64,000 nt of DNA from positions 62,001-126,000 of the forward strand of contig NZ_RJWA01000010.1 in NCBI RefSeq assembly GCF_003762835.1, read 5' to 3'. The position numbers and the translations under genes are program-made. Under the pieces are notes generated by a model. That model was not told the origin of the DNA, ran no database searches, and was given only the letters and a program-made list of their open reading frames with translations. The stretch is from Micromonospora sp. HM5-17. GTDB lineage: Bacteria; Actinomycetota; Actinomycetes; Mycobacteriales; Micromonosporaceae. Positions 334-26,580 of the stretch are shown here, in pieces (the stretch's first letter is position 1; the number at the start of each line of letters is the position of its first letter).

Positions 334-412
334 CGTACATAAACATTGTAGGCAAAAAGCGATCTTGGCGTACAGGTTTTATGTATATCTTGGGCCGTGT
401 AGCAGGTCACAC
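334..412 (-). promoter_or_regulatory. Operator-flanked promoter, copy 1
   Basis: On the minus strand a -35 box TGTACG (369-374) and a -10 box TACAAT (345-350) are separated by 18 bp. Each box is embedded in a 17-bp operator on the plus strand: CGTACATAAACATTGTA (334-350) and CGTACAGGTTTTATGTA (369-385). A further conserved block, GTGTGACC on the minus strand, lies at about 403-410. The same arrangement recurs at 24.3 and 26.5 kb. It drives the gene at 28-297. Confidence 0.75.
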
Positions 413-497
413 AGGCGCCGACACCGCAGGCCCCTCCACGGAGACCGCCGAACGGCCTCGATCGGGTCGGGAAGTGAGGAGGTGCCGGGACGAAGGC

Positions 498-914
498 TTA
501 GACAGGCTGTGGGCGGGCGAAGCCCTCAGGCGCGTCCCGCTCCGGGAACCGGCGCGCCTCCAGCTCGGCCGCTGCCTCCAGCAACCACGCCGGCTGCGCC
601 CGGCGCGCGGCCTCCGGCCGGGCCAGCACCCGGCCGCCCGGCGACGTTGTCTCCGCACCGCACGCCTGGCACCAGGTCGTCAGCCACAGCAGACCGCGCC
701 CCTGCTCCGTCGACCCGGCCAGCAGGCCACCGCAGCCGCACACGCCGACCGGACGGCCGGCGTCGACCGCCGAGACGTACGCCTCGACGTCCACCGTGCC
801 GTCGCGCAGCAGTGCCGTGCTGATGGCCACCACACACACCTCTCCGCTGGTCGAGGCTTCCTCAGTGTGGGACGGGGCCGGGTCGAAGATCAACATTGTT
901 CGACCCGGCCCCAC
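498..914 (-). CDS. Phage zinc-ribbon-like protein (138 aa)
   Basis: Unknown function. Four cysteines in two pairs (VCGCGG about residues 58-63 and WCQACG about residues 81-86) suggest a small zinc ribbon; the C-terminus is Ala/Arg-rich and helical. The GTG start at 914 is supported by a GAGGAGGAG ribosome binding site that overlaps the end of the upstream gene, so the two are translationally coupled. An ATG at 896 is an alternative start. It belongs to the replication/recombination operon. Confidence 0.65.
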   Translation of the reverse strand: MGPGRTMLIFDPAPSHTEEASTSGEVCVVAISTALLRDGTVDVEAYVSAVDAGRPVGVCGCGGLLAGSTEQGRGLLWLTTWCQACGAETTSPGGRVLARPEAARRAQPAWLLEAAAELEARRFPERDAPEGFARPQPV

Positions 915-917
915 CGG

Positions 918-1460
918 TCACTCCTCCTCGACGGACGGCAGTGCCAGGAGCTCACCGAGCGCCAGCCGGCCGTCCCGGTACGCCGCCGCCACCTCCTTCC
1001 GTCCGCCGGTCTTCCACGTCAGCCGCGTGGCCGGCGGGGCCGGCTCGGCGACCCGAACGAAGTCGAGTACCCGGCCGGTCTCGCCGTCGACGACCGTGCC
1101 ATCCGGCTCGACCCGCATCCGGGCCAGCAGCGCCTTACGCCACGCCGGCCGGACCGTCTCCACCGGTGCCGGCGTCGTGACCTCCACCTCGGTCGGGTGC
1201 TCCTGCTTGCACCAGGCGAGGAAGCCGGCTTCCTCGACGATGAACCCGGGCTCAGGAGTGCTCAGGCTGAGCTGGGCGACCGCCCGTCCGCAGCCGGGCA
1301 CCCGCACCTCGACCGTCGTCACCCCGAGCTGGTTGTGCAGGTCGATCAGTCCGCTGTCGGCCTCGTGCCGGGCGGCGTCGTACGCCTTCTTCACCTCGTC
1401 GGCGAGGGCCTTGAGCACGGCGGCCCGCATCGCCACCTCGGGGAGCTGCTGCCTGGTCAC
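918..1460 (-). CDS. Phage protein downstream of the Sak4-like ATPase (180 aa)
   Basis: No family recognised. The N-terminus is an amphipathic helix (KALADEVKKAYDAARHEADSG), followed by a beta-rich core with a lone CKQEH motif and an acidic C-terminus ending in EEE. It overlaps the upstream ATPase gene by 4 bp (ATGA), which implies coordinated production. The position suggests a partner in DNA recombination or replication, but that is inference from context only. Confidence 0.65.
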   Translation of the reverse strand: MTRQQLPEVAMRAAVLKALADEVKKAYDAARHEADSGLIDLHNQLGVTTVEVRVPGCGRAVAQLSLSTPEPGFIVEEAGFLAWCKQEHPTEVEVTTPAPVETVRPAWRKALLARMRVEPDGTVVDGETGRVLDFVRVAEPAPPATRLTWKTGGRKEVAAAYRDGRLALGELLALPSVEEE

Positions 1461-2581
1461 CGGGTCACCTCCGCCAGGTCGGCCCGGCCGCTGGCCTCAG
1501 CTGGCGGCTGCTCGGTCACCTGGGCGGCTGGTTCCGTCTTCACATCGCCGCGCGGCTGGCCCGGCGGCTCGTTGGGCGTCGCGCCGGCCATGCGGGCGGC
1601 CCGGCGAGCCATCTCCGCCCCGGCCTCCTCTGAGGCGTCGATGTCGGCGGCCTGGGCGAGCGACGTCTTTCGCGCGGCGGCGATCTCCTGGCCCCGCGCG
1701 TTGAACGCGGGTCGCAGCTTCTGCGTCATGCCGAGCCGCTGTGCTCGCTGCCACAGCACCTCCAGGTCCTCCCGGGAGCTGCACGCGGCGAGCGCCTTCG
1801 GCCAGTCGACGTCGGCCGGCGGCTCGCCGTTCTCCAGCCAGTCAAGCAGCTGGTGCGCCAGGTCGGCGCCCGGCTTGTAGATCACCTGGTCAGCCAGGGC
1901 GTCGCACCGGCTCTTCGTGATCCGCAGGAAGTGCTCCGCGTCGATGTCGCCAACGATGTCGAACTCGTACTCGATCCCATCGCGCTGGTCGGGCTGCATG
2001 CCCAGCTTGGAGACCTTCGCCTTGCCGTCCGAACCTTCGGTCAGCTCGTACCGTTGCTTAGAGCGCAGGCAGACCGCGACGTGGCCCGGGTACGACATCA
2101 GGGCCTCGATGTACGCCCGCTCGATCGGGCGGACCTGCTTCCAGCCGTCCATCGATCGGCCGCTGTGGTTGCGGGCGAACAGGTCGACCAGCTCCAGGAT
2201 GCCGCCAGGCCCGAACCAGTAGTGCGACAGGCTGTCGACCATGAACCCGGCGAAGCCCTCGTTGGCAGCCTCGTCGATCAGCTCGACCAGCTGCCGCGGG
2301 TCGTACTTCACCGGGGAGATCTTCGAGAACCCGTACCCGCCGGCCTCCTCCGGCGTCATGTCCAGGACTCCGGGCAGCTCCGGGTTGGCGGCGTACTTGT
2401 CGGCCGAGTCCCGCTCGGTGTCGACGACGGCGATCCGCTCGATGCCGTCAGCGACCGTCCGGCAGCCAGTCAGCGTGTAGAGCAGCTTGAGGCTGGTGAG
2501 CGTCTTGCCGGAGCCGGACGGCCCGGCGAGCGCGATCCGTGCCTTCGCCTGCTTCCTCGTCGCAGGCTTGAACCTTGACAC
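1457..2581 (-). CDS. Sak4-like phage AAA/RecA-fold ATPase
   Basis: Probable phage recombinase or recombination mediator. Walker A GPSGSGKT lies at about residues 20-27, and a Walker B-like run GFAGFMVDSLSHYW follows about 100 residues later, as in Sak4/phage AAA ATPases that help single-strand annealing. The Ala/Glu/Pro-rich C-terminus is probably flexible. The GTG at 2581 is chosen because GAAAGGGA lies at good distance; another GTG at 2599 is possible. A 35-bp dyad (2619-2653) lies just upstream. The gene heads a three-gene coupled run to 498. Confidence 0.8.
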   Translation of the reverse strand: MSRFKPATRKQAKARIALAGPSGSGKTLTSLKLLYTLTGCRTVADGIERIAVVDTERDSADKYAANPELPGVLDMTPEEAGGYGFSKISPVKYDPRQLVELIDEAANEGFAGFMVDSLSHYWFGPGGILELVDLFARNHSGRSMDGWKQVRPIERAYIEALMSYPGHVAVCLRSKQRYELTEGSDGKAKVSKLGMQPDQRDGIEYEFDIVGDIDAEHFLRITKSRCDALADQVIYKPGADLAHQLLDWLENGEPPADVDWPKALAACSSREDLEVLWQRAQRLGMTQKLRPAFNARGQEIAAARKTSLAQAADIDASEEAGAEMARRAARMAGATPNEPPGQPRGDVKTEPAAQVTEQPPAEASGRADLAEVTR

Positions 2582-2618
2582 GTCTTCGTCCCTTTCCACG
2601 TGAACGAACTTACAAAGG

Positions 2619-2653
2619 CTATACGGCTACTGAACGTGATTGCGGCCGTATAG
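2619..2653. promoter_or_regulatory. 35-bp dyad element, copy 1
   Basis: CTATACGGC (2619-2627) and GCCGTATAG (2645-2653) are perfect inverted arms separated by 17 bp. The same 35-bp layout occurs at six other prophage gene starts. Here it overlaps the end of the small zinc-finger gene and lies 38 bp before the Sak4-like gene, which it probably controls. Confidence 0.75.
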
Positions 2654-2866
2654 ATCGAGGCCATGCGAAAGCCCGGTGTGGACCTGGCAGGCCAGTGCTC
2701 CGACAGCGGCAGGGAAGCCGCAGTCGGAGTGCCGACAGATGACCGGCGTACCGAACGCCGTGCAGGCCGTGTCGGCCTCGTGCCGCCAGTCGTCGCCTGC
2801 GGGAACGAGCAGCCCGCCACAGGTGGCGCACTGGGCGACGTCGACTGTCGGCAGGGGGACAGTCAC
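2627..2866 (-). CDS. Small Cys/His-rich phage protein (79 aa)
   Basis: Probable zinc-binding protein: CATCGG near residue 13, then a Cys pair around ICRHSDC and a final ACQVHTG, enough ligands for one or two zinc sites. Function unknown. The GTG start at 2866 overlaps the TGA of the upstream initiator-like gene (GTGA), indicating coupling. Its 3' end runs into the 35-bp dyad at 2619-2653, so the coding sequence and a control site share DNA. Confidence 0.65.
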   Translation of the reverse strand: MTVPLPTVDVAQCATCGGLLVPAGDDWRHEADTACTAFGTPVICRHSDCGFPAAVGALACQVHTGLSHGLDLYGRNHVQ

Positions 2867-3555
2867 TTCCCGATCACTCTCCTTCCGTGTTCCCGTACGA
2901 CCGCCAGGTGGCGGCCGTGCAGCGGGGCCGATCTCCTGCATCCAGGGAAGGCGCAGTAGCCGTTCGGCCCCTCGACGTACCGGTGGTCGGCGAGCGTGCC
3001 GCCGCCAACCGGTAGGTCCTGTTTCCCGTTTGGATTGAGTCCGCGTGGCGGACTAGAACCGTCCGCCAGGCGGACTAGCTCTAGTCCGCGACCCGGACTA
3101 GAACCGGCCATCTCTGGTCCGTCTCCCGGACCAGCAAGCCGGGGCGAATCGGACGCTGCTGGTCCGACTCTCGGACCAGCCCTGCGGGTCTCTTCCCGCT
3201 CGTCTGGTCCGGGTGGCGGACGCGTCTCGTCCCCCACTAGTCCGGTGAGCGGACCAGACGGCACCGTTAGCCGGTACACCGTCCGAGCCTTCTTCGACCG
3301 CGCGTCCGCCACGGAGGGCCGGGTCCGAACCACCCAGCCCTCCTTCTCCAGCTTGTTGAGCCACGCGGCCACGGTGGACCGGGCGAGCCCGGTTCCGTTG
3401 ACCAGATCCGTGAGGCTCGGCGTGAACCGCTCGGGGATCGTGGCCGTGGCGTGGTCCGTCCACGTCAGCAGCGTCAAGACGAGCTGGCGGCCAGGAGGAT
3501 CCAACGTGCACTCCTTGCTCCTGACCGCGCGTTCGACCGTCCACCGGTCGACCAT
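2863..3555 (-). CDS. Winged-helix replication initiator-like protein (lambda O-like organisation)
   Basis: Residues 20-95 read as a winged helix (QLVLTLLTW, LVNGTGLARSTVAAWLNKLEKEGWVVR), as in phage replication initiators and DnaD-like proteins. Residues about 100-174 are a low-complexity Gly/Pro/Arg linker encoded by DNA that holds seven palindromic iterons. The C-terminus has a small Cys/His motif (YCAFPGCRR...HGRHL). An initiator gene carrying its own iterons is the arrangement of lambda O and oriLambda. The ATG at 3555 is the start. Initiator function is inferred from fold plus iterons. Confidence 0.7.
   Translation of the reverse strand: MVDRWTVERAVRSKECTLDPPGRQLVLTLLTWTDHATATIPERFTPSLTDLVNGTGLARSTVAAWLNKLEKEGWVVRTRPSVADARSKKARTVYRLTVPSGPLTGLVGDETRPPPGPDEREETRRAGPRVGPAASDSPRLAGPGDGPEMAGSSPGRGLELVRLADGSSPPRGLNPNGKQDLPVGGGTLADHRYVEGPNGYCAFPGCRRSAPLHGRHLAVVREHGRRVIGK
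3036..3257. repeat. Seven phased 21-bp palindromic iterons (candidate phage origin)
   Basis: Copies of CT(A/G)GTCCG-N5-CGGAC(T/C)AG are centred at 3046, 3068, 3091, 3124, 3169, 3214 and 3247. Three are perfect in both arms (3081-3101, 3114-3134, 3159-3179). The centre spacings of 22, 23, 33, 45, 45 and 33 bp are close to whole numbers of 11-bp turns, so all sites face the same side of the helix. A relatively AT-rich stretch (about 3017-3037) flanks the array. All copies lie inside the initiator-like gene. Confidence 0.8.
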
Positions 3556-3652
3556 GCAGGCGGCCTCTCTGTGCAGCGCCGCCAGCGCACCGCACCCCGA
3601 ACTGGCGTACGATGCGCGTGCGACCCGTTATCCGATCCGGGTACGTCTCCAC

Positions 3653-3684
3653 CGGCCCCGCCAGATGACCGCCTGGCGGGGCCG
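3653..3684. terminator. Strong hairpin, probable terminator
   Basis: A 12-bp perfect stem (CGGCCCCGCCAG with CTGGCGGGGCCG) and 8-nt loop lie between the HTH gene ending at 3750 and the initiator-like gene starting at 3555. There is no T-tract, as is common in high-GC actinobacteria. Confidence 0.65.
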
Positions 3685-3749
3685 AGACGTTCTCCGGCAC
3701 CTTACACCCGACGTGTACGGCCGCAGTGCCTCCGGGCATCCTCATACCC

Positions 3750-4064
3750 TCACGCCGTCCCGGCCTCGGGCTCGCCCGGGTCCCGCTTGATGCCCCACGG
3801 ATCCCACACGATCGTCCGGTTCGTCCGCTCGGCGAACGCGTAGATGGTCGGCACCTTCCAGACCGGGTTGTTGCTCACCTCGCCGTCCTCCTTGGGCAGC
3901 ACACCCTTCGACCGCCACTGGTACGGCGTGTTGTCCTTCACGTCGAACATCCGGCCGATCTCCTTGAGGCCCACGACGGGCGGCGGGGAGATCGGCCCCT
4001 CTTCGATCAGGTTGTCGGCGACCGAACGGACCGCCGCCCTCAACTGGGTCTTGCTCACCTTCAC
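3750..4064 (-). CDS. Putative small HTH DNA-binding phage protein (104 aa)
   Basis: The middle of the protein (VVGLKEIGRMFDVKDNTPYQWRSKG, about residues 30-54) reads as a helix-turn-helix of the excisionase/MerR-like type, followed by a short wing (NNPVWKVPTIYAFAERTNR). The GTG at 4064 is chosen because GAGGAGAGG precedes it; the open frame runs further upstream, but those residues look non-coding. It is downstream of the promoter at 4249-4300, with an extra operator at 4090-4106 just before the start. It is a candidate regulator of the operator family, by position only. Confidence 0.65.
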   Translation of the reverse strand: MKVSKTQLRAAVRSVADNLIEEGPISPPPVVGLKEIGRMFDVKDNTPYQWRSKGVLPKEDGEVSNNPVWKVPTIYAFAERTNRTIVWDPWGIKRDPGEPEAGTA

Positions 4065-4089
4065 GTTCCTCTCCTCCCACGACGGGCGC

Positions 4090-4106
4090 CGTACAGAGAG
4101 AATGTA
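4090..4106. promoter_or_regulatory. Isolated 17-bp operator
   Basis: CGTACAGAGAGAATGTA matches the operator consensus seen at the paired promoters; with the next base it forms GTACA-N7-TGTAC. It lies 26 bp before the GTG of the HTH gene, between that gene and the 30-aa leader ORF. No -10 box accompanies it, so it may serve feedback or roadblock control. Confidence 0.6.
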
Positions 4107-4128
4107 CGGCACCACCCCGCGGGATCGA

Positions 4129-4221
4129 TCACAGCGCCGCAGCGGCTCCGAGGTCAGAACCGCAGGGCAGCGGTCCGGCCGCGAGGCCCGACGTCGCCGC
4201 ACTGGGCAAGATCTTGGCCAT
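4129..4221 (-). CDS. Possible 30-aa leader peptide or small protein
   Basis: ATG at 4221 with an AGGAGGG ribosome binding site, encoding MAKILPSAATSG and an Ala/Gly/Leu-rich tail. It is the first open frame after the strongest promoter of the prophage (TTGACG-N18-TACAAT). It could be a leader peptide or simply a chance ORF; no homology is recognised. Confidence 0.4.
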   Translation of the reverse strand: MAKILPSAATSGLAAGPLPCGSDLGAAAAL

Positions 4222-4248
4222 CTTCCCTCCTGTTCATGGCAGACGAGA

Positions 4249-4300
4249 CGTACAAAGACATTGTATAGGATAGGCCATCTCGACGTCAATATTGTATGTA
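4249..4300 (-). promoter_or_regulatory. Operator-flanked promoter, copy 2 (near-consensus)
   Basis: Minus-strand TTGACG (4284-4289), 18 bp, TACAAT (4260-4265). The proximal operator CGTACAAAGACATTGTA is at 4249-4265; the distal one, CGTCAATATTGTATGTA (4284-4300), is degenerate in its left arm, which turns the -35 into near-consensus TTGACG. It transcribes the 30-aa ORF and the HTH gene. Confidence 0.75.
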
Positions 4301-4362
4301 TGTCCGGGACATCCTTTGCTCGGCCTGCGCGCAGCCGGCTATGCTGGTGTCTCCACGTGAAC

Positions 4363-4398
4363 GCAAGGAGCCCCGGACCACGGTCCGGGGCTCCTTGC
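4363..4398. terminator. Terminator at the end of the tail operon
   Basis: A perfect 17-bp stem (GCAAGGAGCCCCGGACC paired with GGTCCGGGGCTCCTTGC) with an almost loopless turn begins 13 bp after the stop codon of the last minor tail gene. It separates the late operon from the 4.2-kb promoter region and could work in both directions. Confidence 0.8.
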
Positions 4399-4410
4399 TA
4401 TCCGGGGCGG

Positions 4411-5112
4411 CTACGTCACCGCGACGGCGTGCGGGAACTTCACCGCCTCGCCACATGCCGTGATCTGCAAGTAGCGGGGCCGTCCCGGCGCGCCGATGTG
4501 CGTGACCGTTCCCGTGTTCGCCTCCAGCGTGAGCTGGATCGTTGTCGACAGGTCCGTGTCCGCGTCCCGCTTGATGTACCGCAGCGCGTCGCAGTTCATC
4601 ACCGGGCCGCCCTCCGTCCGGAACCGGTAGAACTCGGTGATCTGAACCGCGGGGGAGCCAGCCCGCATCAGCCGGAACAACGGCTGCACCCCGGCGGCCG
4701 ACGAGCTGACGCCGCCGCCCAGCTCCACCCGGTACGCCGTCCGCGCCCGCAGCACCATCGGCACGGACAACACCACGGTCTGGGCCGTCACGGCCGGCGA
4801 GTTGTTCTCCGCCCACGCCAGCCCGTCCGGGCCGACACCGGGGGCGGGTGGTCCCGCCCAGCCGACAATGTGGTTCCCGGACGGCGGCGACTTCACCACC
4901 ATGACCCGGGCGCCGACCGCGACGGGCCCCACCATGGACACGACGCGAATCGGCACCGTGTCGCCGTCGTAGACAGCCCGGATCGTCCCGTCGGCCGCCA
5001 CGCTCACCACTGTCGCGGGCCGCAGCCGCCACATCAGCCCGAGCCGGCTCGCCCGCTCCAGCACCGCCTCGGCGATCGCTTTCACCGGCAGATGGCCATA
5101 CGGATCCCTCAC
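4411..5112 (-). CDS. Minor tail protein (233 aa)
   Basis: Last gene of the late operon. The N-terminal third resembles the OB-like baseplate/hub accessory proteins of actinophages (TVVSVAADGTIRAVYDGDTVPIRVVSMVGPVAVGARVMVV), and the rest is beta-rich and probably receptor-facing. It overlaps the preceding minor tail gene by 4 bp (ATGA at 5109-5112). The role is inferred from fold impression and from its place after the tape measure. Confidence 0.65.
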   Translation of the reverse strand: MRDPYGHLPVKAIAEAVLERASRLGLMWRLRPATVVSVAADGTIRAVYDGDTVPIRVVSMVGPVAVGARVMVVKSPPSGNHIVGWAGPPAPGVGPDGLAWAENNSPAVTAQTVVLSVPMVLRARTAYRVELGGGVSSSAAGVQPLFRLMRAGSPAVQITEFYRFRTEGGPVMNCDALRYIKRDADTDLSTTIQLTLEANTGTVTHIGAPGRPRYLQITACGEAVKFPHAVAVT

Positions 5113-6206
5113 GCCGGATCATCCCCGTCCGTCGTCGGATACGCCCGGCGAAGCGTGTGCCGCATCTCCCCGCCCGGGGCGAGCGCCATCGTCCAGCCGG
5201 TCTCCAGCCACAGCTGCCCGTCCCACCGCACCACGTCGTAGCCGTCGTGCCGCGGGTCAGGCGGCGTACTCAGCTCCACCGACTCGTAGATCGTCTGCTG
5301 TATGCCCAGCGTCCGCGCGTATACCGTCACCAGCGCCTGCGATGGCAGCTGCGCCTCCACCACCCTCGGCAGCACGAACCCGCGTCGGGCGATCGAGTGC
5401 GGCGCCGACGCCGGCACGTCGTACGTGCCGACCAGCGGGGCCGCGTCCGAACCTGGGTCGTTGCTGACGACGACGAACCGGTTCGGCGCCGTCAGCAGGT
5501 CCGACACGCGCGAGATTGAGTTGCGGACCACCCGCCGGGACGCGTCCAGGTCGATCGTCGGCGCCTGGCCAGCCGGCTCGAACGCGCGCCGCAGCCGCAG
5601 CCGGCCCTGGTGGTCGAACCACGGCTTGAAGTACCCGCCCATCGTCGCCAGGTCCCGCAGGGCGCTAGCCCGGGAGGTGCCCGGCGACCAGGAGCTCACC
5701 GACCGCTGCTCGGTCGAGTCCATCGCCACCTCGCCGATCGGCAACCCATCCAGCAGCCGGGCCACCGCCTGGTCGACGAGCTGCCCGCCCGCGTCGAACC
5801 CGCTCTCCAGCTCCTGGTCGACGATGAACATCTCGTCGAACAGGGTCAGCGGAGCCGTCGACCCGCCGCTGCGCACCACCTCCACACTGTCGGCGATCAT
5901 GTACCGGCCCAGCGGGTACACGCTGGGCGGCCGGTCGCCGACCACCATCGAGATCGCCACCCGGTCCGTCAGCGGGTTCACCCGCTCGGCGTCCACCGCC
6001 CCGAGGGTCAGCCCGGACACCCGCCGCACGATCGTCGCCGTGACATCGTGGCTCAGGCTCGGTGTCGTCCCGCGTAGCGGAGTCAGCGGCCCGCGCCGCA
6101 CCCCAGTGCGGCCGTCGATCAAGTCGAAGCGGAACGACACCGCCCGCTGCCCAACGTGGTCGGGCAGATCGAGCAGGTCACGCGGTGCCGCAGATGCCAA
6201 GCCCAT
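5109..6206 (-). CDS. Minor tail / baseplate hub-like protein (365 aa)
   Basis: Typical actinophage tail-tip protein. A beta-rich N-terminus has a characteristic stretch on converting hub coordinates (FRFDLIDGRTGVRRGPLTPLRGT), and the central domain has SPGTSRASALRDLATMGGYFKPWFDHQGRLRLR, as in hub proteins of the gp27/gp44 type. The ATG at 6206 overlaps the end of the upstream giant tail gene by 29 bp. It should sit at the tail tip around the tape measure end. Confidence 0.7.
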   Translation of the reverse strand: MGLASAAPRDLLDLPDHVGQRAVSFRFDLIDGRTGVRRGPLTPLRGTTPSLSHDVTATIVRRVSGLTLGAVDAERVNPLTDRVAISMVVGDRPPSVYPLGRYMIADSVEVVRSGGSTAPLTLFDEMFIVDQELESGFDAGGQLVDQAVARLLDGLPIGEVAMDSTEQRSVSSWSPGTSRASALRDLATMGGYFKPWFDHQGRLRLRRAFEPAGQAPTIDLDASRRVVRNSISRVSDLLTAPNRFVVVSNDPGSDAAPLVGTYDVPASAPHSIARRGFVLPRVVEAQLPSQALVTVYARTLGIQQTIYESVELSTPPDPRHDGYDVVRWDGQLWLETGWTMALAPGGEMRHTLRRAYPTTDGDDPA

Positions 6207-13239: not shown

Positions 13240-13258
13240 ATGATCAGCGTAGGCGGTC

Positions 13259-13293: not shown

Positions 13294-13316
13294 CTTTTCG
13301 TGCCTCACACCCCGCC

Positions 13317-13786: not shown

Positions 13787-14285
13787 AGAGTTTGAATCCC
13801 TGTTTCGCCCCGGCGTCCGCGCCTTTCACTTGGAGATGCGGGATGTCTACCGGGTCGAACAGGAAGACGTCCCTTTCCAGAGATGGATCCAAGGGCTGCC
13901 GGACGACTATTCCTGGCGCGAGGAGTGGCTGTCCTTCGTCCGCGCCGTCACCTCAGCCGGTACGGTGATTCAACGAGTGCGGATCGTCACAGAGCCCCAT
14001 TCGGATTACGTACGCTGGGAGCGAGAGCTGGACCCCCAGAACGCCAAGGCCGGTGAAGACATCCGCTACTTGCCCCGCGCGCAGGCAAGCGACATCACCC
14101 TTCCCGCCGAGGACTGCTGGCTGTTTGACGACGACCAGCTCGTCTTGAGCCTGTTCAAGCCAGACGGACGCTCCGGCGGCTACGCCACTGAGGACGACCC
14201 ACAGCTCGTGGCCCAGTACCGGGCGGTGCGTGACGAGGTGTGGGCGCGTGCGATCCCGTACGCCGAGTACCACCCAGCAGGCTAG
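13767..14285 (+). CDS. DUF6879 family protein (172 aa)
   Basis: It matches the pattern of actinobacterial DUF6879 proteins: FESLFRPGVRAFHLEMRDVY at the N-terminus, then a central WLSFVRAVTSAGTVIQRVRIVTEPHSDYVRWE and the DCWLFDDDQLVLSLF signature. These proteins are usually encoded next to XRE/DUF5753 regulators, as here; their biochemical role is not established. ATG at 13,767; its TAG stop overlaps the GTG of the regulator gene. Confidence 0.85.
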   Translation: MNPITSREFESLFRPGVRAFHLEMRDVYRVEQEDVPFQRWIQGLPDDYSWREEWLSFVRAVTSAGTVIQRVRIVTEPHSDYVRWERELDPQNAKAGEDIRYLPRAQASDITLPAEDCWLFDDDQLVLSLFKPDGRSGGYATEDDPQLVAQYRAVRDEVWARAIPYAEYHPAG

Positions 14286-15130
14286 TGTCCACCCCGGCCC
14301 GTCAGGCCCGCGAGGCGTTGGGCGTCAGGCTCAGGGACATCCGGCATGACGCCGGACTGACGGGCCGGGCGCTGGCCGCCAACGCCGGCTGGCACTACAC
14401 CAAGGTCTCCAAGCTGGAACACGGCGTCATCAACGCGTCCGAGAACGACGTACGCACGTGGTGCCGCATCTGCAACGCCGAAGACCAGATACCAGACCTG
14501 GTCGCGGCCGTCCGCTCCATCGACACAATGTTCGTCGAGTGGCGCCGGCAGCTCAGATCCGGCACCAAGCGGCGACAGAAGGAAAGCGTCCGCTTCGAGG
14601 CCGAGACGACGTTCTTTCGCGCCTTCGAGCCGATGTTCATACCCGGGCTGCTTCAGACTGCCGAGTACGCCGCGGCCCTGCTAACCAGCTTCATCGACTT
14701 CCACGGCCTGCCGGATGACGTAGACGACGGCGTGGAGGCTCGCATGGAGCGGCAGAAGATTCTCTACCGGGGAGAGCACCGGTTTCACATGGTCTTCTGC
14801 GAAACGGCCCTGACACTGGGCATCGCCCCAGCAGATGTTTTGGTTGGCCAACTCGATCGCCTGCTGGCCGCTTCGACTCTTCCACGTGTTCACATGGGAA
14901 TCATCCCAACTCGGGCCACTCACAAATTCCTGCCGCTACACGGCTTCTGGATACTCGACAACACGACGGTCCTCATCGAGACGATCTCGGCCGAAATCAA
15001 ACTGACGCAGCCGCGGGACATCGCGGTCTACGCCAAAGCATTCGAGCGGTTGGCGTCGTCCGCCGTCTACGGCCGTGACGCCCGGAGCCTGATCACCAGC
15101 GCCCTCAGGAGCCTCGACGACGCGAGTTGA
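14285..15130 (+). CDS. XRE-type transcriptional regulator with DUF5753 domain (281 aa)
   Basis: Residues about 5-65 form a helix-turn-helix (LGVRLRDIRHDAGLTGRALAANAGWHYTKVSKLEHG), and residues about 95-270 are the DUF5753 domain (FEPMFIPGLLQTAEYAAALL, VHMGIIPTRATHKFLPLHGFWILD). This is the common actinomycete regulator class that works with a small partner protein. The GTG at 14,285 shares bases with the upstream stop codon. In a prophage it is a candidate for lysogeny or accessory-gene control, although it resembles chromosomal developmental regulators more than classic phage repressors. Confidence 0.9.
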   Translation: MSTPARQAREALGVRLRDIRHDAGLTGRALAANAGWHYTKVSKLEHGVINASENDVRTWCRICNAEDQIPDLVAAVRSIDTMFVEWRRQLRSGTKRRQKESVRFEAETTFFRAFEPMFIPGLLQTAEYAAALLTSFIDFHGLPDDVDDGVEARMERQKILYRGEHRFHMVFCETALTLGIAPADVLVGQLDRLLAASTLPRVHMGIIPTRATHKFLPLHGFWILDNTTVLIETISAEIKLTQPRDIAVYAKAFERLASSAVYGRDARSLITSALRSLDDAS

Positions 15131-17722: not shown

Positions 17723-17732
17723 GAGCCGCACA

Positions 17733-18396: not shown

Positions 18397-18410
18397 CCCC
18401 AACGAGCCGC

Positions 18411-18442: not shown

Positions 18443-18462
18443 TTCATGCCACCGCGCCGGGA

Positions 18463-19528: not shown

Positions 19529-19788
19529 CAACGGCGACGCGACCGCTTCGCCCCGGCCGGCTCGGCCTCATCCACGCCGGCGGCTACGGCGTCCGCCGCC
19601 GTCGCTTCACCCTCCGGCGGCGCCGGCGGCTGGGTCGGCGGATCCTCCCGCTCGACGAGCTCGTAGCGGCCCAACCGCACCAGCTTCGCCAACCGGGCCG
19701 TCCACTCCAGCACCTGCACCTCGCCGGCCTGGACGCCCGGCATGTTCACCAGCGCCCGCACCGTCACGAACTCACCGAGTTTCGGCAT
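19528..19788 (-). CDS. Small neck-region protein (86 aa)
   Basis: Short protein with a compact N-terminal half (FVTVRALVNMPGVQAGEVQVLEWTARLAKLVRLGRYELV), as in small head-tail joining proteins, and a Pro/Glu/Ala-rich tail ending in KRSRRR. It sits between two connector genes with minimal spacing. Function is inferred from position. Confidence 0.65.
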   Translation of the reverse strand: MPKLGEFVTVRALVNMPGVQAGEVQVLEWTARLAKLVRLGRYELVEREDPPTQPPAPPEGEATAADAVAAGVDEAEPAGAKRSRRR

Positions 19789-19791
19789 CGC

Positions 19792-20337: not shown

Positions 20338-21122
20338 GACGTCCTCCGGCGACCGCCGGCCAGGTCCGGCGACCACACCACCGAATCGCGGGGCAGCCGG
20401 TTCGGGTTGACCACCCGCAACCACTGGTCGACCTCGGGCAGCCCGGTCATGCCGTCCTTGGCGAGCTGCGCCGGGTCGAGGAACGTCTGCTGCACGCCCT
20501 GCCGCACCACTGACTGCACCCGCCGAGGCAGCCGGCACGTGCTGTCGGCCAGAATCGCCTTCGCCAGCTCGCACGCGTACTGCCCGGCCGCGAGCTGCCC
20601 GCCCACCGGCACCGGGATGCCACGCTGATAGGTCACAACGAAGCTGCCGGGCTCGGTGTCCGCCGCGGTGAAGTCCTGGCACTCCGGCCAGCAGTCCCCG
20701 TCAACCCGCACCAGCCACCGCCGGTCGTGCACCAGGTACGCGGCCGGCGGCACCACCTCGCCGTCGACGCGGACCTCCGTCACCCCGTGCACCGGACCGG
20801 CCAGGCCCACCTCGCACAGCCGCGACGAGCACGAGCAGCCAGGCCCGGAGCAGCCGCACCACGACACCCCAAGCCAGCCGTACGGCAGCGTCGGCAGGTA
20901 TGGCAGCAACCGCCAGAAGTCGTATCCGTCCGGGCAGCTGCGCCGGCACGGCCGCACCGTCAACGAGCACAGGCCGAAGCGGCGACCGGACAGCGCCCAC
21001 AGCACCTCCGTCGCCACACTGGTGGCCGTCGCCTTGATCTCGGCGTCCACGTCGGCCCAGCCCGCGCAGCCGGCCGTGATCAGCGGCCAGTCGCACGGGC
21101 CGGTCCGGACCGGCTGCGTCAC
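20334..21122 (-). CDS. Head-tail adaptor protein (262 aa)
   Basis: The N-terminal helices (DVDAEIKATATSVATEVLWALSGRRFGLCSLTVRPC) and a Cys-rich insertion (residues about 90-105) match actinophage head-tail adaptors that bind under the portal; the C-terminal half has ELAKAILADSTCRLPRRVQSVVRQGVQQTFLDP and a surface loop. Ten or more cysteines are unusual for a virion protein, but this insertion is common in the family. Confidence 0.75.
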   Translation of the reverse strand: MTQPVRTGPCDWPLITAGCAGWADVDAEIKATATSVATEVLWALSGRRFGLCSLTVRPCRRSCPDGYDFWRLLPYLPTLPYGWLGVSWCGCSGPGCSCSSRLCEVGLAGPVHGVTEVRVDGEVVPPAAYLVHDRRWLVRVDGDCWPECQDFTAADTEPGSFVVTYQRGIPVPVGGQLAAGQYACELAKAILADSTCRLPRRVQSVVRQGVQQTFLDPAQLAKDGMTGLPEVDQWLRVVNPNRLPRDSVVWSPDLAGGRRRTS

Positions 21123-21131
21123 GGCGGTCGC

Positions 21132-22079
21132 CTACGGCGCGAACGGCACGGCGACCGACTTGAAGCGCTGCGCCCCGGTCGTCGTGTCGGTGACCGTCAC
21201 CAGGTACACGCCGGCCGATGCGTACTGGTGACTGACCTTCGCCGCCTCGGCCGGGCCGGGCGACACCGCACCGTCACCCCAATCCACCGTGTAGGTGTGG
21301 ACCGGAGGACCCGGCGGAACGTACGTCGCCGTGAACTCGGCCGTCATGCCGGTCGCGTCCGTGGCGTCCTCGGCCAAGGTACCGTCCGGCGGACGCTCGG
21401 TGATACCGCACGTCGGCGCCGGCGGCGGCAGCGTCGTCCAGTCGATGTGCAGCAGGTCCTTCTCACCCATCGGGTCGAGGAGCTTCCCGACACCGGTCGA
21501 GCGCAGGTAGACGTCGTACGGGCCGACGTCCCACGCCTCGTTCTCGATCGCCTTCCCGGTCAGGGTGAACGTCACCGCCGCGTTCTCGATCGTGAAGTCC
21601 GTGACGTGCCCGTCGATGATCTGCGGCAGCAGGAAGTACCCGAACCGCGGCCGTGGCGTCGCCCCGCCGGCGCACTTCTTCAGCGACGTGCCCGACCACA
21701 GCTCCAGCGCCACCGACGACGCCAGGTTGATCCCGCTGGTGACCCGCATCCCGGTCGCCACCCCGTCCTCGTCAAGGACGACAGGGTGGCCGGTGAACAT
21801 CGTGTACAACTCGGGGTCGACCTTGCAGCAGCTGACGGTGACGTTGTAGAACTTGATCCGCCGCCGGCCCGGCTCGTAGACGGCGGAGTCGCCGTTGGCG
21901 TCCTTCTGGTCGATCTCCTCGCCCTCGTCGAACTCGGGCGCGTACTCGACCGAGATGAAGCCCTTCGTGACCACGTGCACCGGCCAACCCCCGGCCCCCA
22001 TGACCGGGTTGCCGCACGCGTCGAGCTTCGTGGCACGCAGCATCTTCCCCTTGACCGGGGCATCGCACACCGCAGGCAT
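21132..22079 (-). CDS. Major tail tube protein with C-terminal Ig/PKD-like domain (315 aa)
   Basis: The tube domain is recognised by YNVTVSCCKVDPELYTMFTG, TDFTIENAAVTFTLTGKAIENEAW and GPYDVYLR, as in siphophage tail tube proteins. Residues about 235-315 (MTAEFTATYVPPGPPVHTYTVDWGDG ... VSHQYASAGVYLVTVTD) are a PKD/Ig-like surface domain. The ATG at 22,079 follows GAGGA; a GTG at 22,085 is an alternative. Its leader resembles that of the capsid gene. It precedes the connectors, a less common order. Confidence 0.85.
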   Translation of the reverse strand: MPAVCDAPVKGKMLRATKLDACGNPVMGAGGWPVHVVTKGFISVEYAPEFDEGEEIDQKDANGDSAVYEPGRRRIKFYNVTVSCCKVDPELYTMFTGHPVVLDEDGVATGMRVTSGINLASSVALELWSGTSLKKCAGGATPRPRFGYFLLPQIIDGHVTDFTIENAAVTFTLTGKAIENEAWDVGPYDVYLRSTGVGKLLDPMGEKDLLHIDWTTLPPPAPTCGITERPPDGTLAEDATDATGMTAEFTATYVPPGPPVHTYTVDWGDGAVSPGPAEAAKVSHQYASAGVYLVTVTDTTTGAQRFKSVAVPFAP

Positions 22080-22109
22080 CGGCACGTCCTCAACGGGAGA
22101 TCCTTGTGC

Positions 22110-22158
22110 CCGGCCCGCAGCCAGCGGCGCTACCCGCCTAGGGTAGCCCAGGCGGCGC
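22110..22158 (-). promoter_or_regulatory. Late-gene leader element, tail tube copy
   Basis: On the minus strand, GCGCCGCC(T)GGGCTACCCT and, after a short gap, CTGGCTGCGGGCCGG closely match the segment upstream of the capsid gene (29,637-29,688). TACCCT could be a -10 box. It is probably the late promoter or a leader for the two most abundant virion proteins. Confidence 0.55.
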
Positions 22159-22207
22159 CGGATCGACCCTGGACACGAGCGCGGCCTGGGCGGTGACTCA
22201 CCGATGG

Positions 22208-22239
22208 TCGAGGGTCGTGCCCCTAGGCACGACCCTCGA
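22208..22239. terminator. Hairpin terminator after the small accessory operon
   Basis: A 14-bp perfect stem (TCGAGGGTCGTGCC with GGCACGACCCTCGA), 4-nt loop, lies 26 bp beyond the stop of the gene at 22,266-22,652. It isolates that operon from the tail tube gene. Confidence 0.75.
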
Positions 22240-22265
22240 TCCTCTCACCGGTGGAACATCTCCAA

Positions 22266-22652
22266 CTAGGTCAGCCTCCTCGGCTGAACGGGCGGCATCG
22301 GCACCGTCCCTTCGGGCGGCGGGCTCGCGCACCGCCGGCACGTCACCTTCCTCGGGGTGCCCAACGCCAGGTCCGCCTCGACCGTCACCGCCCGGATGCA
22401 GAAGGCGCAGTGCATGGGCACCAGCCTCGGCAAGTACAGCCCGATCACCATGTGGCCCTTCGGCAGCAGCGCCGACGCCGGCTTGCCCTCCGGCATCCGC
22501 CGTACCATCACCTGCAACGCCGTCGCGAAGTCCGGGTGCCCGTGCACGTCAAGGACCTCGACGACATTGCCGAGGAACACCACATGGTCCCGGCGCCGCA
22601 GTTCGTCGACCCGGATCGGCAGACCCATCCGGCTCGTACTCTCCACGGTCAC
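22266..22652 (-). CDS. Accessory phage protein with zinc-ribbon-like Cys motifs (128 aa)
   Basis: Unrecognised. MHCAFCIRA (about residues 80-88) and VTCRRCASPP (about residues 105-114) form a likely zinc ribbon; the N-terminal half is beta-rich (RDHVVFLGNVVEVLDVHGHPDFA). The GTG at 22,652 overlaps the preceding stop (GTGA). It is the last gene of a three-gene operon governed by the 35-bp dyad at 23,720. Confidence 0.65.
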   Translation of the reverse strand: MTVESTSRMGLPIRVDELRRRDHVVFLGNVVEVLDVHGHPDFATALQVMVRRMPEGKPASALLPKGHMVIGLYLPRLVPMHCAFCIRAVTVEADLALGTPRKVTCRRCASPPPEGTVPMPPVQPRRLT

Positions 22653-23149
22653 GCCGCACGCTCCATCCAGCCGCGCCGGGCCTGGACGTCCAGCACCAGC
22701 TGGTCGGTCAGCCCGGCCCACACGTCGAGCGGCAGCGTCGCGATGTGCTCCCACCGCCCGGCCACCGCCACGTACACGTGCAGCGCGCCGTACGCGTACT
22801 CCCACAGGTACGCCCACTCCTCACCCTCGCCGGGCGGATCGGCGGGCATCCGCCCGACGAGCGCCCTCCCGCTGACACCGAGAGGGTGCGCCCGGCCGAC
22901 GCCGGTGACGTGCACCCACCGGCCCTCCTCGTCGGCGACCACAGCCGGCGGCCACTCGGTGTTGGCCAGGAAGCACCAGTCCCGGTCGAGCAACGCGGCG
23001 ACCATCTCCTCCGTGTCCCGCGAAAACTTCCGTCGCCACATCGCGTGCATCTGCCCGAGCAGCCAGCTCGGCTGGCCCTCCAGGTCGACCGGCCGCGCCC
23101 GGTACCACCTGTCGCCGCCGGGGGCGAAGCGCCCCACCAGTGCCGTCAT
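22649..23149 (-). CDS. Accessory phage protein, paralogue of the next gene (166 aa)
   Basis: Unknown function. It shares GEEWAYLWEYAYGALHVYVAVAGRW with EWAYLFGGHRLHVYLAVWPERG of the adjacent gene, plus similar spacing of DRDW/RSDW and a final LVLDVQARRGW/LLDVQKRGFATQW, so the two arose by tandem duplication. The ATG at 23,149 overlaps the upstream stop (ATGA). Confidence 0.7.
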   Translation of the reverse strand: MTALVGRFAPGGDRWYRARPVDLEGQPSWLLGQMHAMWRRKFSRDTEEMVAALLDRDWCFLANTEWPPAVVADEEGRWVHVTGVGRAHPLGVSGRALVGRMPADPPGEGEEWAYLWEYAYGALHVYVAVAGRWEHIATLPLDVWAGLTDQLVLDVQARRGWMERAA

Positions 23150-23673
23150 CGCCAAACCTCCCCGTAGCGCTCGGCGACCGCCGCCATGTACTTCCGGAAA
23201 TCAGCGGCCCGCCATTGCGTCGCGAAGCCGCGCTTCTGCACGTCCAGCAGCTCGGTCATCGACAAGCTGGGAAGCTCGTTGACCGACCAGCACGCCCACG
23301 GCTGCCACTGCTTGTCGCCGCGCTCCGGCCAGACGGCCAGGTAGACGTGCAACCGGTGGCCGCCGAACAGGTAAGCCCACTCGCGGTCGCCCGGGGTGGT
23401 CGTGCCGATGTGACCCGTCTCCGGCTCCGGGGCGCAGAGGATCGGCGCGCCGACCACCTCGCCGGCCATGCCGGTGCCGGGCAGGGCGTAGAGCGACCGC
23501 CAGTCGGAGCGCAGCAGATGGTCGACCGCCGCCGCCTGGTCGTGGTCGAGCACGTTGTGCACCAGCGCGGTCAGCGCGGGCACGATCACGGTGGGGCAGC
23601 CGTCGTAGTGGACATACCGCGCCCGGTACGTGCCGCCGGCGTCCTCGACACCGAGCAGCGCGCGAAGACCCAT
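23146..23673 (-). CDS. Accessory phage protein, paralogue of the previous gene (175 aa)
   Basis: First gene of the operon. RARYVHYDGCPTVIVPALTALV and HVYLAVWPER recur in small actinobacterial and actinophage proteins of unknown role. The ATG at 23,673 is chosen because GGAGG lies 5 bp before it; an in-frame GTG at 23,685 is less likely. The 35-bp dyad at 23,720-23,754 is 47 bp upstream. Confidence 0.7.
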   Translation of the reverse strand: MGLRALLGVEDAGGTYRARYVHYDGCPTVIVPALTALVHNVLDHDQAAAVDHLLRSDWRSLYALPGTGMAGEVVGAPILCAPEPETGHIGTTTPGDREWAYLFGGHRLHVYLAVWPERGDKQWQPWACWSVNELPSLSMTELLDVQKRGFATQWRAADFRKYMAAVAERYGEVWR

Positions 23674-23719
23674 GTTTACCTCCACGTGAACGGGGTCTTG
23701 CTTAAACAGTTACCTTTTT

Positions 23720-23754
23720 CTGTACGGCCGCAATCATCAACAGTAGCCGTATAG
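23720..23754. promoter_or_regulatory. 35-bp dyad element, copy 3
   Basis: CTGTACGGC (23,720-23,728) and GCCGTATAG (23,746-23,754) flank a 17-bp centre that includes CGCAATCA. It is the reverse-orientation twin of the copy at 2,619 over most positions, and it precedes the operon 23,673-22,266. Confidence 0.75.
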
Positions 23755-23826
23755 ATCGGAGGCCCAGGCTGGGAACTCCGTACCGGGGCCGGCCACCCGG
23801 CCGGTCCCGTCTACGCAGTCACCAGC

Positions 23827-24090
23827 TCAGGACCGGGCCTCGTCGAGTGACCCGACCCACCACGACTCGGTCTCGCCGTGCCAGGCCGGCAGGGTGTACG
23901 GCGACGGCGTCGCGCCGCCCGCAAACCAGGCCACGATCTTGTCCGCGTACCACTGCGGCGTCCGCGAGCGGACCAGGTATGCCTTCAGGTCCTCGACCGT
24001 CTCACCGACCCGCTCCCGGTGCCGCCCCAGCTGGCCGTCCAGATCGTCCGGTCGGCCTGTTCTTCCGGGTCGGCCGGACGGGCGTCGCAC
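23827..24090 (-). CDS. Small accessory phage protein, start uncertain (about 87 aa)
   Basis: The C-terminal 60 residues (TVEDLKAYLVRSRTPQWYADKIVAWFAGG ... SWWVGSLDEARS) look like a genuine folded protein. The only plausible start is a GTG at 24,090, deep inside the upstream Cys-rich gene, whose frame stays open to 23,985. The two could be overlapping genes or one protein interrupted by a frameshift. Confidence 0.5.
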   Translation of the reverse strand: MRRPSGRPGRTGRPDDLDGQLGRHRERVGETVEDLKAYLVRSRTPQWYADKIVAWFAGGATPSPYTLPAWHGETESWWVGSLDEARS

Positions 24091-24248
24091 TCGTCGAACG
24101 GCTCGTCCGCGTGCTTGCAATCCGGCGCGTGCGGCTCCGAGAAGTGCGCACCGCAGTGCCAGCAGCAGTCCATCTCGTCGTTGCAGTTGAACCGCCCACA
24201 CTCGTCAGTCGCAGCCGACAGGTCGGGCTCAATCACCTTCTCCGGCAT
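23985..24248 (-). CDS. Cys/His-rich accessory protein (87 aa)
   Basis: CGRFNCNDEMDCCWHCGAHF and PDCKH supply seven cysteines and two histidines, so zinc binding is likely. The ATG at 24,248 with GGAGGAAGAG follows the operator-flanked promoter at 24,277-24,328. The last 20 residues look less protein-like, and the downstream frame takes over there. Confidence 0.6.
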   Translation of the reverse strand: MPEKVIEPDLSAATDECGRFNCNDEMDCCWHCGAHFSEPHAPDCKHADEPFDECDARPADPEEQADRTIWTASWGGTGSGSVRRSRT

Positions 24249-24276
24249 CTCTTCCTCCAGGTAGATGGGCGCGTGG

Positions 24277-24355
24277 CGTACATAGACATTGTATACGGCA
24301 AGCCTCCTGCGCGTACAGAATTTATGTACGGGCTGGGCTATGGAGCGGGTCACAC
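24277..24355 (-). promoter_or_regulatory. Operator-flanked promoter, copy 3
   Basis: Minus-strand TGTACG (24,312-24,317), 18 bp, TACAAT (24,288-24,293). Operators CGTACATAGACATTGTA (24,277-24,293) and CGTACAGAATTTATGTA (24,312-24,328). The GTGTGACC block follows at about 24,346-24,354. It drives the Cys-rich accessory genes. Confidence 0.75.
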
Positions 24356-24363
24356 AAGACGGC

Positions 24364-25386
24364 TTAGAACAGCCGCCCCTGCCGGTAGGTCGCGTCCGCG
24401 TCGAACGTCGCCGAGTGCGGTGGCGCCGCCTTCGGCTCCGGCGGCAACGACTCGCGCAGGTGCCGCACCAGCGGCTCCTCCGGCGCGTCCAGACCGAACA
24501 GCTGCCGGACCGCCGCCAGCATCCGGGCCTGCTCCCACAGCCTGGCCACCTCGTCGATCGCCCGCTGCCGCTCGTCAAGCGCCGCCTGCATCCAGTCGTT
24601 CATCAGCCCGTCGCCGCACCCGACGACCACCCGCATTCCCAAGCCCCAGCAGTGCACGTTGACCGCGCAGCAGGCCGCGGCGAGCCAGTCGATGTCGTTG
24701 GCCCACCACTCGACCGCCTCGGGGTCGCCGCCCCGCCGGCGTATAGCCCGCGCCGCCCCGAGCAGCATCGTGCCCGTGCCAGCGCACGGCTCCAACACCG
24801 ACAGCGGCAGCCTGTCGTTGGCCACCTCGTACGCCGCAATTCCCAGGTCAGCCACCACTATCTCGCCCATCATGTCCGTCACGTCAACGGGCGTTAGGAA
24901 CTGGCCGAGGCCGTCCCGCGCCGACCGGGACCGGATCGCCTGAAGCACGCTGCCGAGCAGGTCCACCTCCTCGCGGCGCCACCTCACGCCGGTGAGCTCC
25001 AGCTGGCCCTTCTTCAGCGCCGCCTGCCCGGTGGCGTGCACCGACCGGAGCAACTGGTCGTCCAGGTCGTCGTCGTCCAGCCACCCCCACAGCGGCTTTG
25101 TGCGGGGCAGCAGGTCCGGCCGCCCGATCGCGAACCGGTTCCAGATGCTGCGCAGCAGCTCGACGAACCCGTGCCGGTCCAGCGACAGCATCTGCTCCGC
25201 CAGGTCCGGCCCGTCCGGGTCGCGTTGCTCGACGAGCGCCAATGCGGCGACCACGCTGACCGGGATCTCGATCCGCGAGCCGCCGAAGTTCCCGTGCCAT
25301 GCCTCGTCGACCGCCTCCGCGATCTTCCAGGCGTGCTGCCGGGGACTCTCTGGCACGGCCTTCCGCCGCGCTGTCTTCGTTGTCAT
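24364..25386 (-). CDS. N-6 DNA methylase-like protein lacking the catalytic NPPY motif (340 aa)
   Basis: It has the fold landmarks of the HsdM-type N6 methylase family: GQFLTPVDVTDMMGEIV (residues about 162-178), the SAM motif LEPCAGTGTMLLGAA (about 197-211) and WWANDIDWLAAACCAVN. After GDGLMNDW no NPP(Y/F) motif follows, so it probably binds SAM or DNA without methylating. Similar genes occur on actinomycete phages and plasmids. It forms an independent cassette with two Cys-rich or helical genes between promoter 26,501 and the hairpins. Confidence 0.75.
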   Translation of the reverse strand: MTTKTARRKAVPESPRQHAWKIAEAVDEAWHGNFGGSRIEIPVSVVAALALVEQRDPDGPDLAEQMLSLDRHGFVELLRSIWNRFAIGRPDLLPRTKPLWGWLDDDDLDDQLLRSVHATGQAALKKGQLELTGVRWRREEVDLLGSVLQAIRSRSARDGLGQFLTPVDVTDMMGEIVVADLGIAAYEVANDRLPLSVLEPCAGTGTMLLGAARAIRRRGGDPEAVEWWANDIDWLAAACCAVNVHCWGLGMRVVVGCGDGLMNDWMQAALDERQRAIDEVARLWEQARMLAAVRQLFGLDAPEEPLVRHLRESLPPEPKAAPPHSATFDADATYRQGRLF

Positions 25387-25409
25387 CGGTACCTCCAGCT
25401 CGAATGGCG

Positions 25410-25441
25410 GCGCCCCCGCAGCCGTCGGGCTGCGGGGGCGC
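25410..25441. terminator. Intergenic hairpin before the methylase-like gene
   Basis: A 14-bp perfect stem (GCGCCCCCGCAGCC with GGCTGCGGGGGCGC) and 4-nt loop lie in the 69-bp gap. It may attenuate transcription into the methylase-like gene. Confidence 0.6.
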
Positions 25442-25455
25442 TCCGGGTTTGTGGG

Positions 25456-26064
25456 TCAGCTGCGGAAGGCGCAGCCCGCGTGACCGCAGCCGCCGCAGTA
25501 GCCGCCGGTCGCGCACTCGCACCCGCACGAGCCAGGCCGCAGGGCACGCCGGGGCAGCAGCACGCCGGTCTGCGCATCGCTCGGAGCCGCGGCCACCGCC
25601 GGCGTCGGCGTCGGCTCCGGCAGCGGCCCGAGGCTCGCCTTTACGCGGCTGACCGCCCACTCCACCGCGCACCGGCACCGGCACCGGCAGGTCCCATCGC
25701 CCGCCTGCCGCTCGCAGCTGGTGTGCCAGCCGGCACGGCACTGCTGGCACCACCCGTGCTCGTGGAACCGGGCCACGATCCGCTCGGCGATCCTCGGCGG
25801 CACCACGTACAACCCGGCCGTCTCCTCGACGACGATCGTCGACGGCGGCCACTTCGCGTCCGGCCCTCGCACTGACAGGAGCATCACCATCGGCTCGGTG
25901 ACGCCGAGCGCGTTGCCGTCCTCCACGACGAACCGGTACGCGACGCCCGCCAGCTCAAAGGTGATGTGCTCCTGGGCGTCGTCGACCTCGGTCACCGTGC
26001 CGTACGCGCCGATGACGTCGACCAGCGCCGCGAGCCCGTTCGCGTCGTCCTTCGTGACCTTCAT
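25456..26064 (-). CDS. Cys-rich accessory protein (202 aa)
   Basis: Unrecognised. Residues 1-90 form a beta-rich domain (GTVTEVDDAQEHITFELAGVAYRFVVE); residues about 100-135 carry CQQCRAGWHTSCERQ and CRCRCRC; the end has CGCECATGGYCGGCGHAGC. In total about 15 cysteines, so two or three zinc sites are plausible. Second gene of the cassette that starts at 26,465. Confidence 0.65.
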   Translation of the reverse strand: MKVTKDDANGLAALVDVIGAYGTVTEVDDAQEHITFELAGVAYRFVVEDGNALGVTEPMVMLLSVRGPDAKWPPSTIVVEETAGLYVVPPRIAERIVARFHEHGWCQQCRAGWHTSCERQAGDGTCRCRCRCAVEWAVSRVKASLGPLPEPTPTPAVAAAPSDAQTGVLLPRRALRPGSCGCECATGGYCGGCGHAGCAFRS

Positions 26065-26088
26065 GCCTTCCTCCCTCTGGAAATGGCG

Positions 26089-26118
26089 GCGCGCCGGCCG
26101 GAAACCCGGCCGGCGCGC
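26089..26118. terminator. Intergenic hairpin inside the accessory cassette
   Basis: A 13-bp perfect stem (GCGCGCCGGCCGG with CCGGCCGGCGCGC) around AAAC, between the genes at 26,130 and 26,064. Like the hairpin at 25,410, it punctuates the cassette gene by gene. Confidence 0.6.
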
Positions 26119-26129
26119 ACTCGTCGACG

Positions 26130-26465
26130 TCAGTTGCTCGCGGTTCCCCGCTTCTGCCGCACGTCGTGGGCGACCAGCGCCAGCGCCTCCCGGCGCTCCG
26201 CGACGCGCATCAGTGCCGCGTCGAACGCCGCCGCCTTGTCCGTCACGGCGGCCATCAGGGAGCCCCGGGTCATCGCCCGCAGGTCGCCCTGCTTCGCCGA
26301 CGCGACGGCCAGCTCCGTCGCCCGCTGCACCTCGCGGGCCGCGGCCTCCACGGCCCGCTCGACCTCGGCGAGCCGGATCGCCAGCTGGGTGGCGAGGTCG
26401 CTCGGGTCGACGACCTCGACCGGCACCTGGTACTCGCCAAGGAGTTCCCGCACTCGCTGTTCCAT
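26130..26465 (-). CDS. Helical accessory protein (111 aa)
   Basis: Mostly alpha-helical (QLAIRLAEVERAVEAAAREVQRATELAVASAKQ); no family recognised. The ATG at 26,465 (MEQRVRELLGEYQ) is chosen because the longer frame would begin inside the promoter. First gene of the cassette driven by the operator-flanked promoter at 26,501-26,552. Confidence 0.65.
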   Translation of the reverse strand: MEQRVRELLGEYQVPVEVVDPSDLATQLAIRLAEVERAVEAAAREVQRATELAVASAKQGDLRAMTRGSLMAAVTDKAAAFDAALMRVAERREALALVAHDVRQKRGTASN

Positions 26466-26500
26466 TTCTGCCCTCTCTTTCTCAGTAGATGGAGACATCG

Positions 26501-26580
26501 CGTACATATTCATTGTATGCAGAGGGCAGGCCATCCGTACACAAAATATGTACACCACGGGGCCGTGTAACAGGTCACAC
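26501..26580 (-). promoter_or_regulatory. Operator-flanked promoter, copy 4
   Basis: Minus-strand TGTACG (26,536-26,541), 18 bp, TACAAT (26,512-26,517). Operators CGTACATATTCATTGTA (26,501-26,517) and CGTACACAAAATATGTA (26,536-26,552). The upstream GTGTGACC block (about 26,573-26,580) is nearly identical to the copy at 0.4 kb over 22 bp. Confidence 0.75.

Follow-up and report, generated by a model that had tools for sequence, protein, structure and literature searches.

A repeated palindromic operator at scattered promoters of a Micromonospora prophage, with a winged-helix protein as candidate repressor

The prophage and its class I promoters

The window analysed here is the whole 64,000-nucleotide stretch at positions 62001-126000 of contig C2 of the soil actinobacterium Micromonospora sp. 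HM5-17. It contains part of a prophage of about 57 kb with attL and attR in tRNA-Leu, the left end of which lies 9 kb outside the window. The tRNA-Leu end at window position 48096, next to which lies a tyrosine integrase gene (46610-47836), is matched by a 25-bp repeat at L031:11046. The prophage genes lie mostly on the minus strand and include those for terminase, portal, major head, head-tail adaptor, major tail and tape-measure proteins. No close sequenced phage was found in the phage collections searched.

Several further genes were recorded along the element. A tRNA-Gly (TCC) gene lies within the prophage (46095-46167, minus strand). A serine-recombinase-like protein (L031:16114-17076, minus strand) matches Recombinase and zinc-ribbon domains, with no resolvase domain match, and is about 300-320 aa long in several relatives too. 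Between the terminase and portal genes, at a spot that holds variable cargo in relatives, lie genes for a BsuBI/PstI-type restriction endonuclease (35853-37163, plus strand) and an SLFN/AlbA-domain protein (38665-40002, plus strand). The 700-aa DAM-like/GNAT phage protein (43963-46065, minus strand) contains, right behind a PPFY motif, an in-frame insert of about 248 aa. This insert has intein-like ends (C...HN|T) and matches LAGLIDADG weakly; the relative in G010 is without it.

Four minus-strand promoters, here termed A, C, D and F, carry the repeated site (Table 1). We define class I promoters as minus-strand promoters with the core operator TACA-N7-TGTA, which describes the site better than the CGTACA-N6-WTGTA of the first-pass annotation. 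Direct reading of the sequence confirmed the 18-bp spacer between the -35 and the TACAAT -10 in four of four. Each of the eight boxes had been placed in a copy of the longer consensus; for seven of them this copy is exact, and the exception is the -35 box of promoter D, a strong TTGACG within the degenerate operator CGTCAATATTGTATGTA (two mismatches), in the same register as the TGTACG of the other promoters. The lone operator E is an exact copy, and the block GGTCACAC (minus strand GTGTGACC) is, as reported, common to three of the promoters. The copy at 38565, described as broken, has two mismatches, but instead of a stray site it is a decayed promoter, promoter I, which in relatives is intact and drives a second ParB-like gene. 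The four promoters are real but do not complete the set: two more class I promoters lie left of the window, one before the phage ParB gene (C2:57672) and one near C2:56009. This ParB gene, itself left of the window, encodes ParB_N and HTH_ParB domains and has its own operator.

Table 1. Class I promoters, associated sites and genes (window coordinates unless stated otherwise)
Feature	Position	Strand	Description
Gene F	28-297	-	89 aa, function unknown; 41-57% in relatives; no Pfam/PHROG match
Promoter F	334-385	-	operators 334-350 (over -10, 345-350) and 369-385 (over -35, 369-374)
Block GTGTGACC	405-412	-	upstream of promoter F; belongs to conserved element GTGTGACCYGCTMCACGG
Block GTGTGACC	24348-24355; 26573-26580	-	
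TACA-N7-TGTA site	3701-3717	-	overlaps class II type promoter (TTGCGGCC ... TAnGGT) after winged-helix gene
AlpA/MerR-like winged-helix protein	3750-4064	-	104 aa; phrog_597; conserved; proposed repressor
Operator E	4090-4106	-	TACATT in -10 register; no good -35
30-aa leader ORF	4129-4221	-	remnant; relatives have ParA/CpaE-like ATPase of about 308 aa at this spot
Promoter D	4249-4300	-	operator 4249-4265 over -10 (4260-4265); degenerate upstream operator 4284-4300, -35 TTGACG (4284-4289)
Gene C	23985-24248	-	87-aa Cys-rich protein
Promoter C	24277-24328	-	operators 24277-24293 (-10, 24288-24293) and 24312-24328 (-35, 24312-24317)
N6-MTase-like protein	24364-25386	-	downstream of promoter A; PF02384, E 1e-7; conserved in relatives
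Gene A	26130-26465	-	111 aa, function unknown; 50-58% in relatives
Promoter A	26501-26552	-	operators 26501-26517 (-10, 26512-26517) and 26536-26552 (-35, 26536-26541)
39-aa ORF	38433-38552	-	remnant of ParB-like gene of about 530 aa; intact G011 relative is ParB-like
Decayed promoter I	38565-38581	-	two operator mismatches; orthologous promoters intact in eight relatives and in G010/G011
Class II repeat sites	about 2649, 3726, 13289, 23733, 34521; L031 about 13710		
parS-like box GTTCACGTGGA(GG)	about 2600, 4360, 23690	-	also in other elements

Exclusivity and conservation of the operator

Genome-wide pattern searches found nine exact CGTACA-N6-WTGTA sites in the 6.17-Mb genome, all at C2:57672-88552, and six exact TACAATG-N4-TGTA sites, all six within the prophage and on one strand. 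The repeated site is thus present at several promoters of one phage, with exact copies absent from the rest of the host genome. A host regulator was rejected as the binder, as the genome holds no exact host sites. Allowing up to two mismatches, the window contains 20 operator matches, compared with 4.6 +/- 1.9 in shuffled sequences (shuffle maximum 10). That the palindromes are RNA hairpins or chance AT-rich promoter sequence is scarcely credible: an 8-bp stem could form at site E, ahead of the winged-helix gene, but site frequency is far above chance, and the upstream operators precede any plausible transcription start and yet are conserved. For the paired sites, position and conservation refute a general role as RNA hairpins.

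A scan for the pair pattern identified relatives in five viral records and in eight further Micromonosporaceae genomes, with zero matches in the controls and operators in the wrong order in none of 355 genomes. A search with the winged-helix protein likewise led to named hosts that all belong to the Micromonosporaceae, mainly to Micromonospora. Twelve prophages and viral contigs, some of them taken from contig fragments, were compared gene by gene, and the same sites were also seen before orthologous genes in further relatives. The operator consensus recurred in these elements as 43 pairs before the same genes. The pitch is 34 bp in 33 pairs and 35 bp in 10, mostly one base shorter than here, and in 41 of the 43 a start codon follows 29-39 nt past the second site. 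Orthologous genes lie behind the same promoters for A, C, D, E, F, G (ParB), H and I (near terminase); the pair orthologous to promoter F, for instance, precedes the same 79-96-aa gene. An extra pair common to many relatives, before a gene of about 100-113 aa between A and C, is missing from the HM5-17 prophage. The same switch stands at the same genes in relatives from more than 12 other genomes, and about eight scattered gene groups appear to be controlled through it. Site exclusivity and conservation support the earlier proposal of a prophage-specific, scattered regulon with one shared operator.

The genes concerned had been taken for morons under one repressor. In the relatives, however, the class I genes are conserved and syntenic, with A, C, the methylase, F, ParB and the winged-helix gene at the same place, which makes them core genes of the phage group; gene 25456-26064 is the sole cassette gene without a match in close relatives, and distant G045 has one. 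It is accordingly very improbable that they are moron cassettes under an immunity repressor encoded by the XRE-DUF5753 gene, which was one of two binders suggested initially. This gene lies on the opposite strand (14285-15130, plus), like a lysogeny gene, and the cassettes have hairpins and what look like consensus promoter boxes of their own; but in most elements with identical operators the XRE protein is only 25-27% identical or has no match. Relatives have unlike XRE and/or DUF397-like genes at that spot. The hairpins of the cassettes (26582-26633, 26089-26118 and 25410-25441) are strong, but T-runs are missing from them.

A second inverted repeat found at promoters, TACGGYCGCART-N-AYTGCGRCCGTA (class II), is conserved in the relatives and precedes replication, recombination, portal, tape-measure and other virion genes. 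Since the replication and virion genes follow this motif, promoter sequence separates the class I genes from them; at that level, the claim that the cassette promoters are distinct from those of the structural genes stands. The TACA-N7-TGTA site after the winged-helix gene may be a coincidence of the class II motif. Finally, a parS-like box, GTTCACGTGGA(GG), is often found at ribosome-binding sites, at several genes per element, and four of its five exact copies in the genome lie inside the prophage.

A predicted winged-helix repressor and its rivals

The 104-aa winged-helix protein, the other binder suggested by the first-pass annotation, is the more likely one: its gene is conserved together with the operator, and its putative recognition helix seems to vary with the operator. 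The class I promoters are retained in two distant elements, G045 and G026, mostly with GTATA/TATAC half-sites instead of GTACA/TGTAC. The right half-site there is TATAC in seven of nine cases and TGTAC in one of nine, whereas TATAC never occurs in the other elements. In parallel, the winged-helix segment VKDNTPYQWRSKG, the putative recognition helix, is changed to AAGHTPYQWKNRG and YAANTAYQLRARG in G045/G026.

A somewhat unlikely alternative is that the phage ParB binds these sites and acts from scattered operators as a global repressor of the KorB type. It is a genuine ParB_N and HTH_ParB protein with an operator of its own, its gene, likewise conserved with the operator, coincides exactly in occurrence with the winged-helix gene (13 of 355 family genomes, G045 and G026 among them), and RK2 KorB is a ParB-family repressor that acts at long range from plasmid operators (PMC11790492). 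Nevertheless, the ParB HTH helix is nearly unchanged in G045 (GKSAPYVGWRIDLLGL versus GKSQPYIGWRIDLLGL), where the operator changed. ParB fits the parS-like GTTCACGTGGA instead: this box is kept in G045, and none was found in the phage region of G026, where the ParB helix is changed. The co-variation thus favours pairing the winged-helix protein with the class I operator and ParB with GTTCACGTGG, a preference, not proof, as it is carried by just two elements, all of whose proteins have diverged. An order-wide search for the ParB returned generic ParB matches only. A distant ParB-bearing phage contig, L129, has other repeats instead, and was of no help on the operator; it shows two recurrent palindromic leader motifs of its own.

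According to the reading we prefer, a dimer of the winged-helix protein would bind the 17-bp palindromes GTACA-N7-TGTAC, which overlap the -10 of host sigma-70-type promoters and, where they are paired, the -35 as well; RNA polymerase would thereby be excluded. A promoter with paired sites, 34-35 bp apart, would accommodate two dimers. Polymerase occlusion is the simplest reading of near-consensus promoters whose -10, and often also whose -35, is covered by such sites. The loop would be negative because the regulator gene sits downstream of operator D and directly behind E (at 28-31 bp from E in the elements compared), so that the protein would limit its own level. Gene D is reduced to an ORF of 15-46 codons in five elements, the present one and four others; since promoter D and the winged-helix gene remain where gene D shrank, promoter D may also serve the winged-helix gene behind it. 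Since every controlled gene has the operator, that of ParB among them, autoregulation does not set the winged-helix gene apart from the others. The controlled set would comprise ParB, a ParA/CpaE-like ATPase, a second ParB-like protein, a DNA methylase cassette and small proteins of unknown function, with the replication and structural genes following the second, different motif. We put the probability of a negatively autoregulated early/maintenance regulon, with the 104-aa protein as predicted repressor of the class I promoters, at roughly 0.58. Within it, the protein could possibly be a Cro-like early shut-off factor as opposed to an immunity repressor.

AlpA/MerR-type winged helices are often activators, and the sites might accordingly bind an activator, or the winged-helix protein might activate class II promoters while another protein represses class I. 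In favour of this, the winged-helix gene itself belongs to class I, and a class II promoter precedes the gene that follows it. We nonetheless consider it unlikely. The operators extend over the -10 and past its downstream edge, and the core boxes come close to consensus; even the single-operator promoters need no activator, because their -35 is near TTGAC and their -10 is TACAAT. The class II half-sites (GGYCGCA) lie about 22 bp apart, a different geometry.

The winged-helix repressor we favour shows weak profile and fold similarity to AlpA/Xis/MerR-type proteins (phrog_597), whereas an N-terminal helix and a WDPW tail are particular to its own family. Its AlphaFold model is weak (pLDDT 61), with fold matches that are not significant, and no close homologue was found outside these elements at the depth searched. 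Arthrobacter phages Colucci and ArV1 encode a 32-34% relative. Right behind this relative, Colucci has one TACA-N7-TGTA (N8 in ArV1), which is suggestive only, as the helix differs.

Known systems and significance

Multi-operator phage repressors are already known, and the HM5-17 system is apparently an undescribed version of that kind. The actinobacterial temperate phage phiC31 reportedly has scattered 17-bp conserved inverted-repeat operators near early promoters and a much larger repressor. Going by that description, the two systems share scattered 17-bp inverted repeats and differ in operator sequence and repressor size. In mycobacteriophage L5 (cluster A), too, one phage repressor serves many sites across the genome in one orientation relative to transcription. 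The L5 sites, however, are asymmetric, 13 bp long, predicted to be bound by a monomer and located in promoters and short intergenic spaces (PMC9283540), whereas those described here are 17-bp palindromes, often paired and nearly all on promoters shortly before start codons. L5 stoperators, asymmetric 13-bp sites of which many lie off promoters in intergenic spaces, are thus of another kind. The autoregulated, scattered maintenance operons of RK2 KorA/KorB, partition genes among them, offer a further parallel; RK2 differs in being a plasmid with a ParB-family repressor; the prophage has a small winged-helix protein as its best candidate. The start-associated sequences of cluster K mycobacteriophages (PMC3203893) are comparable to the parS-like box at ribosome-binding sites.

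More tentatively, three site systems may be layered in these elements: the winged-helix palindromes, the TACGGYCGCART...AYTGCGRCCGTA repeat and a parS-like GTTCACGTGG box, read by ParB and overlapping ribosome-binding sites. A partition-like module would then serve gene control in an integrated phage.

We found no described immunity system for this group of Micromonosporaceae temperate phages, and the present analysis supplies a ready regulon, an operator and a candidate regulator for it. The natural switch from GTACA to GTATA, together with the helix changes in the candidate, offers a direct way to test repressor specificity with synthetic promoters. Given the link to ParA/ParB-like genes, one may ask whether plasmid-type maintenance control operates in these prophages.
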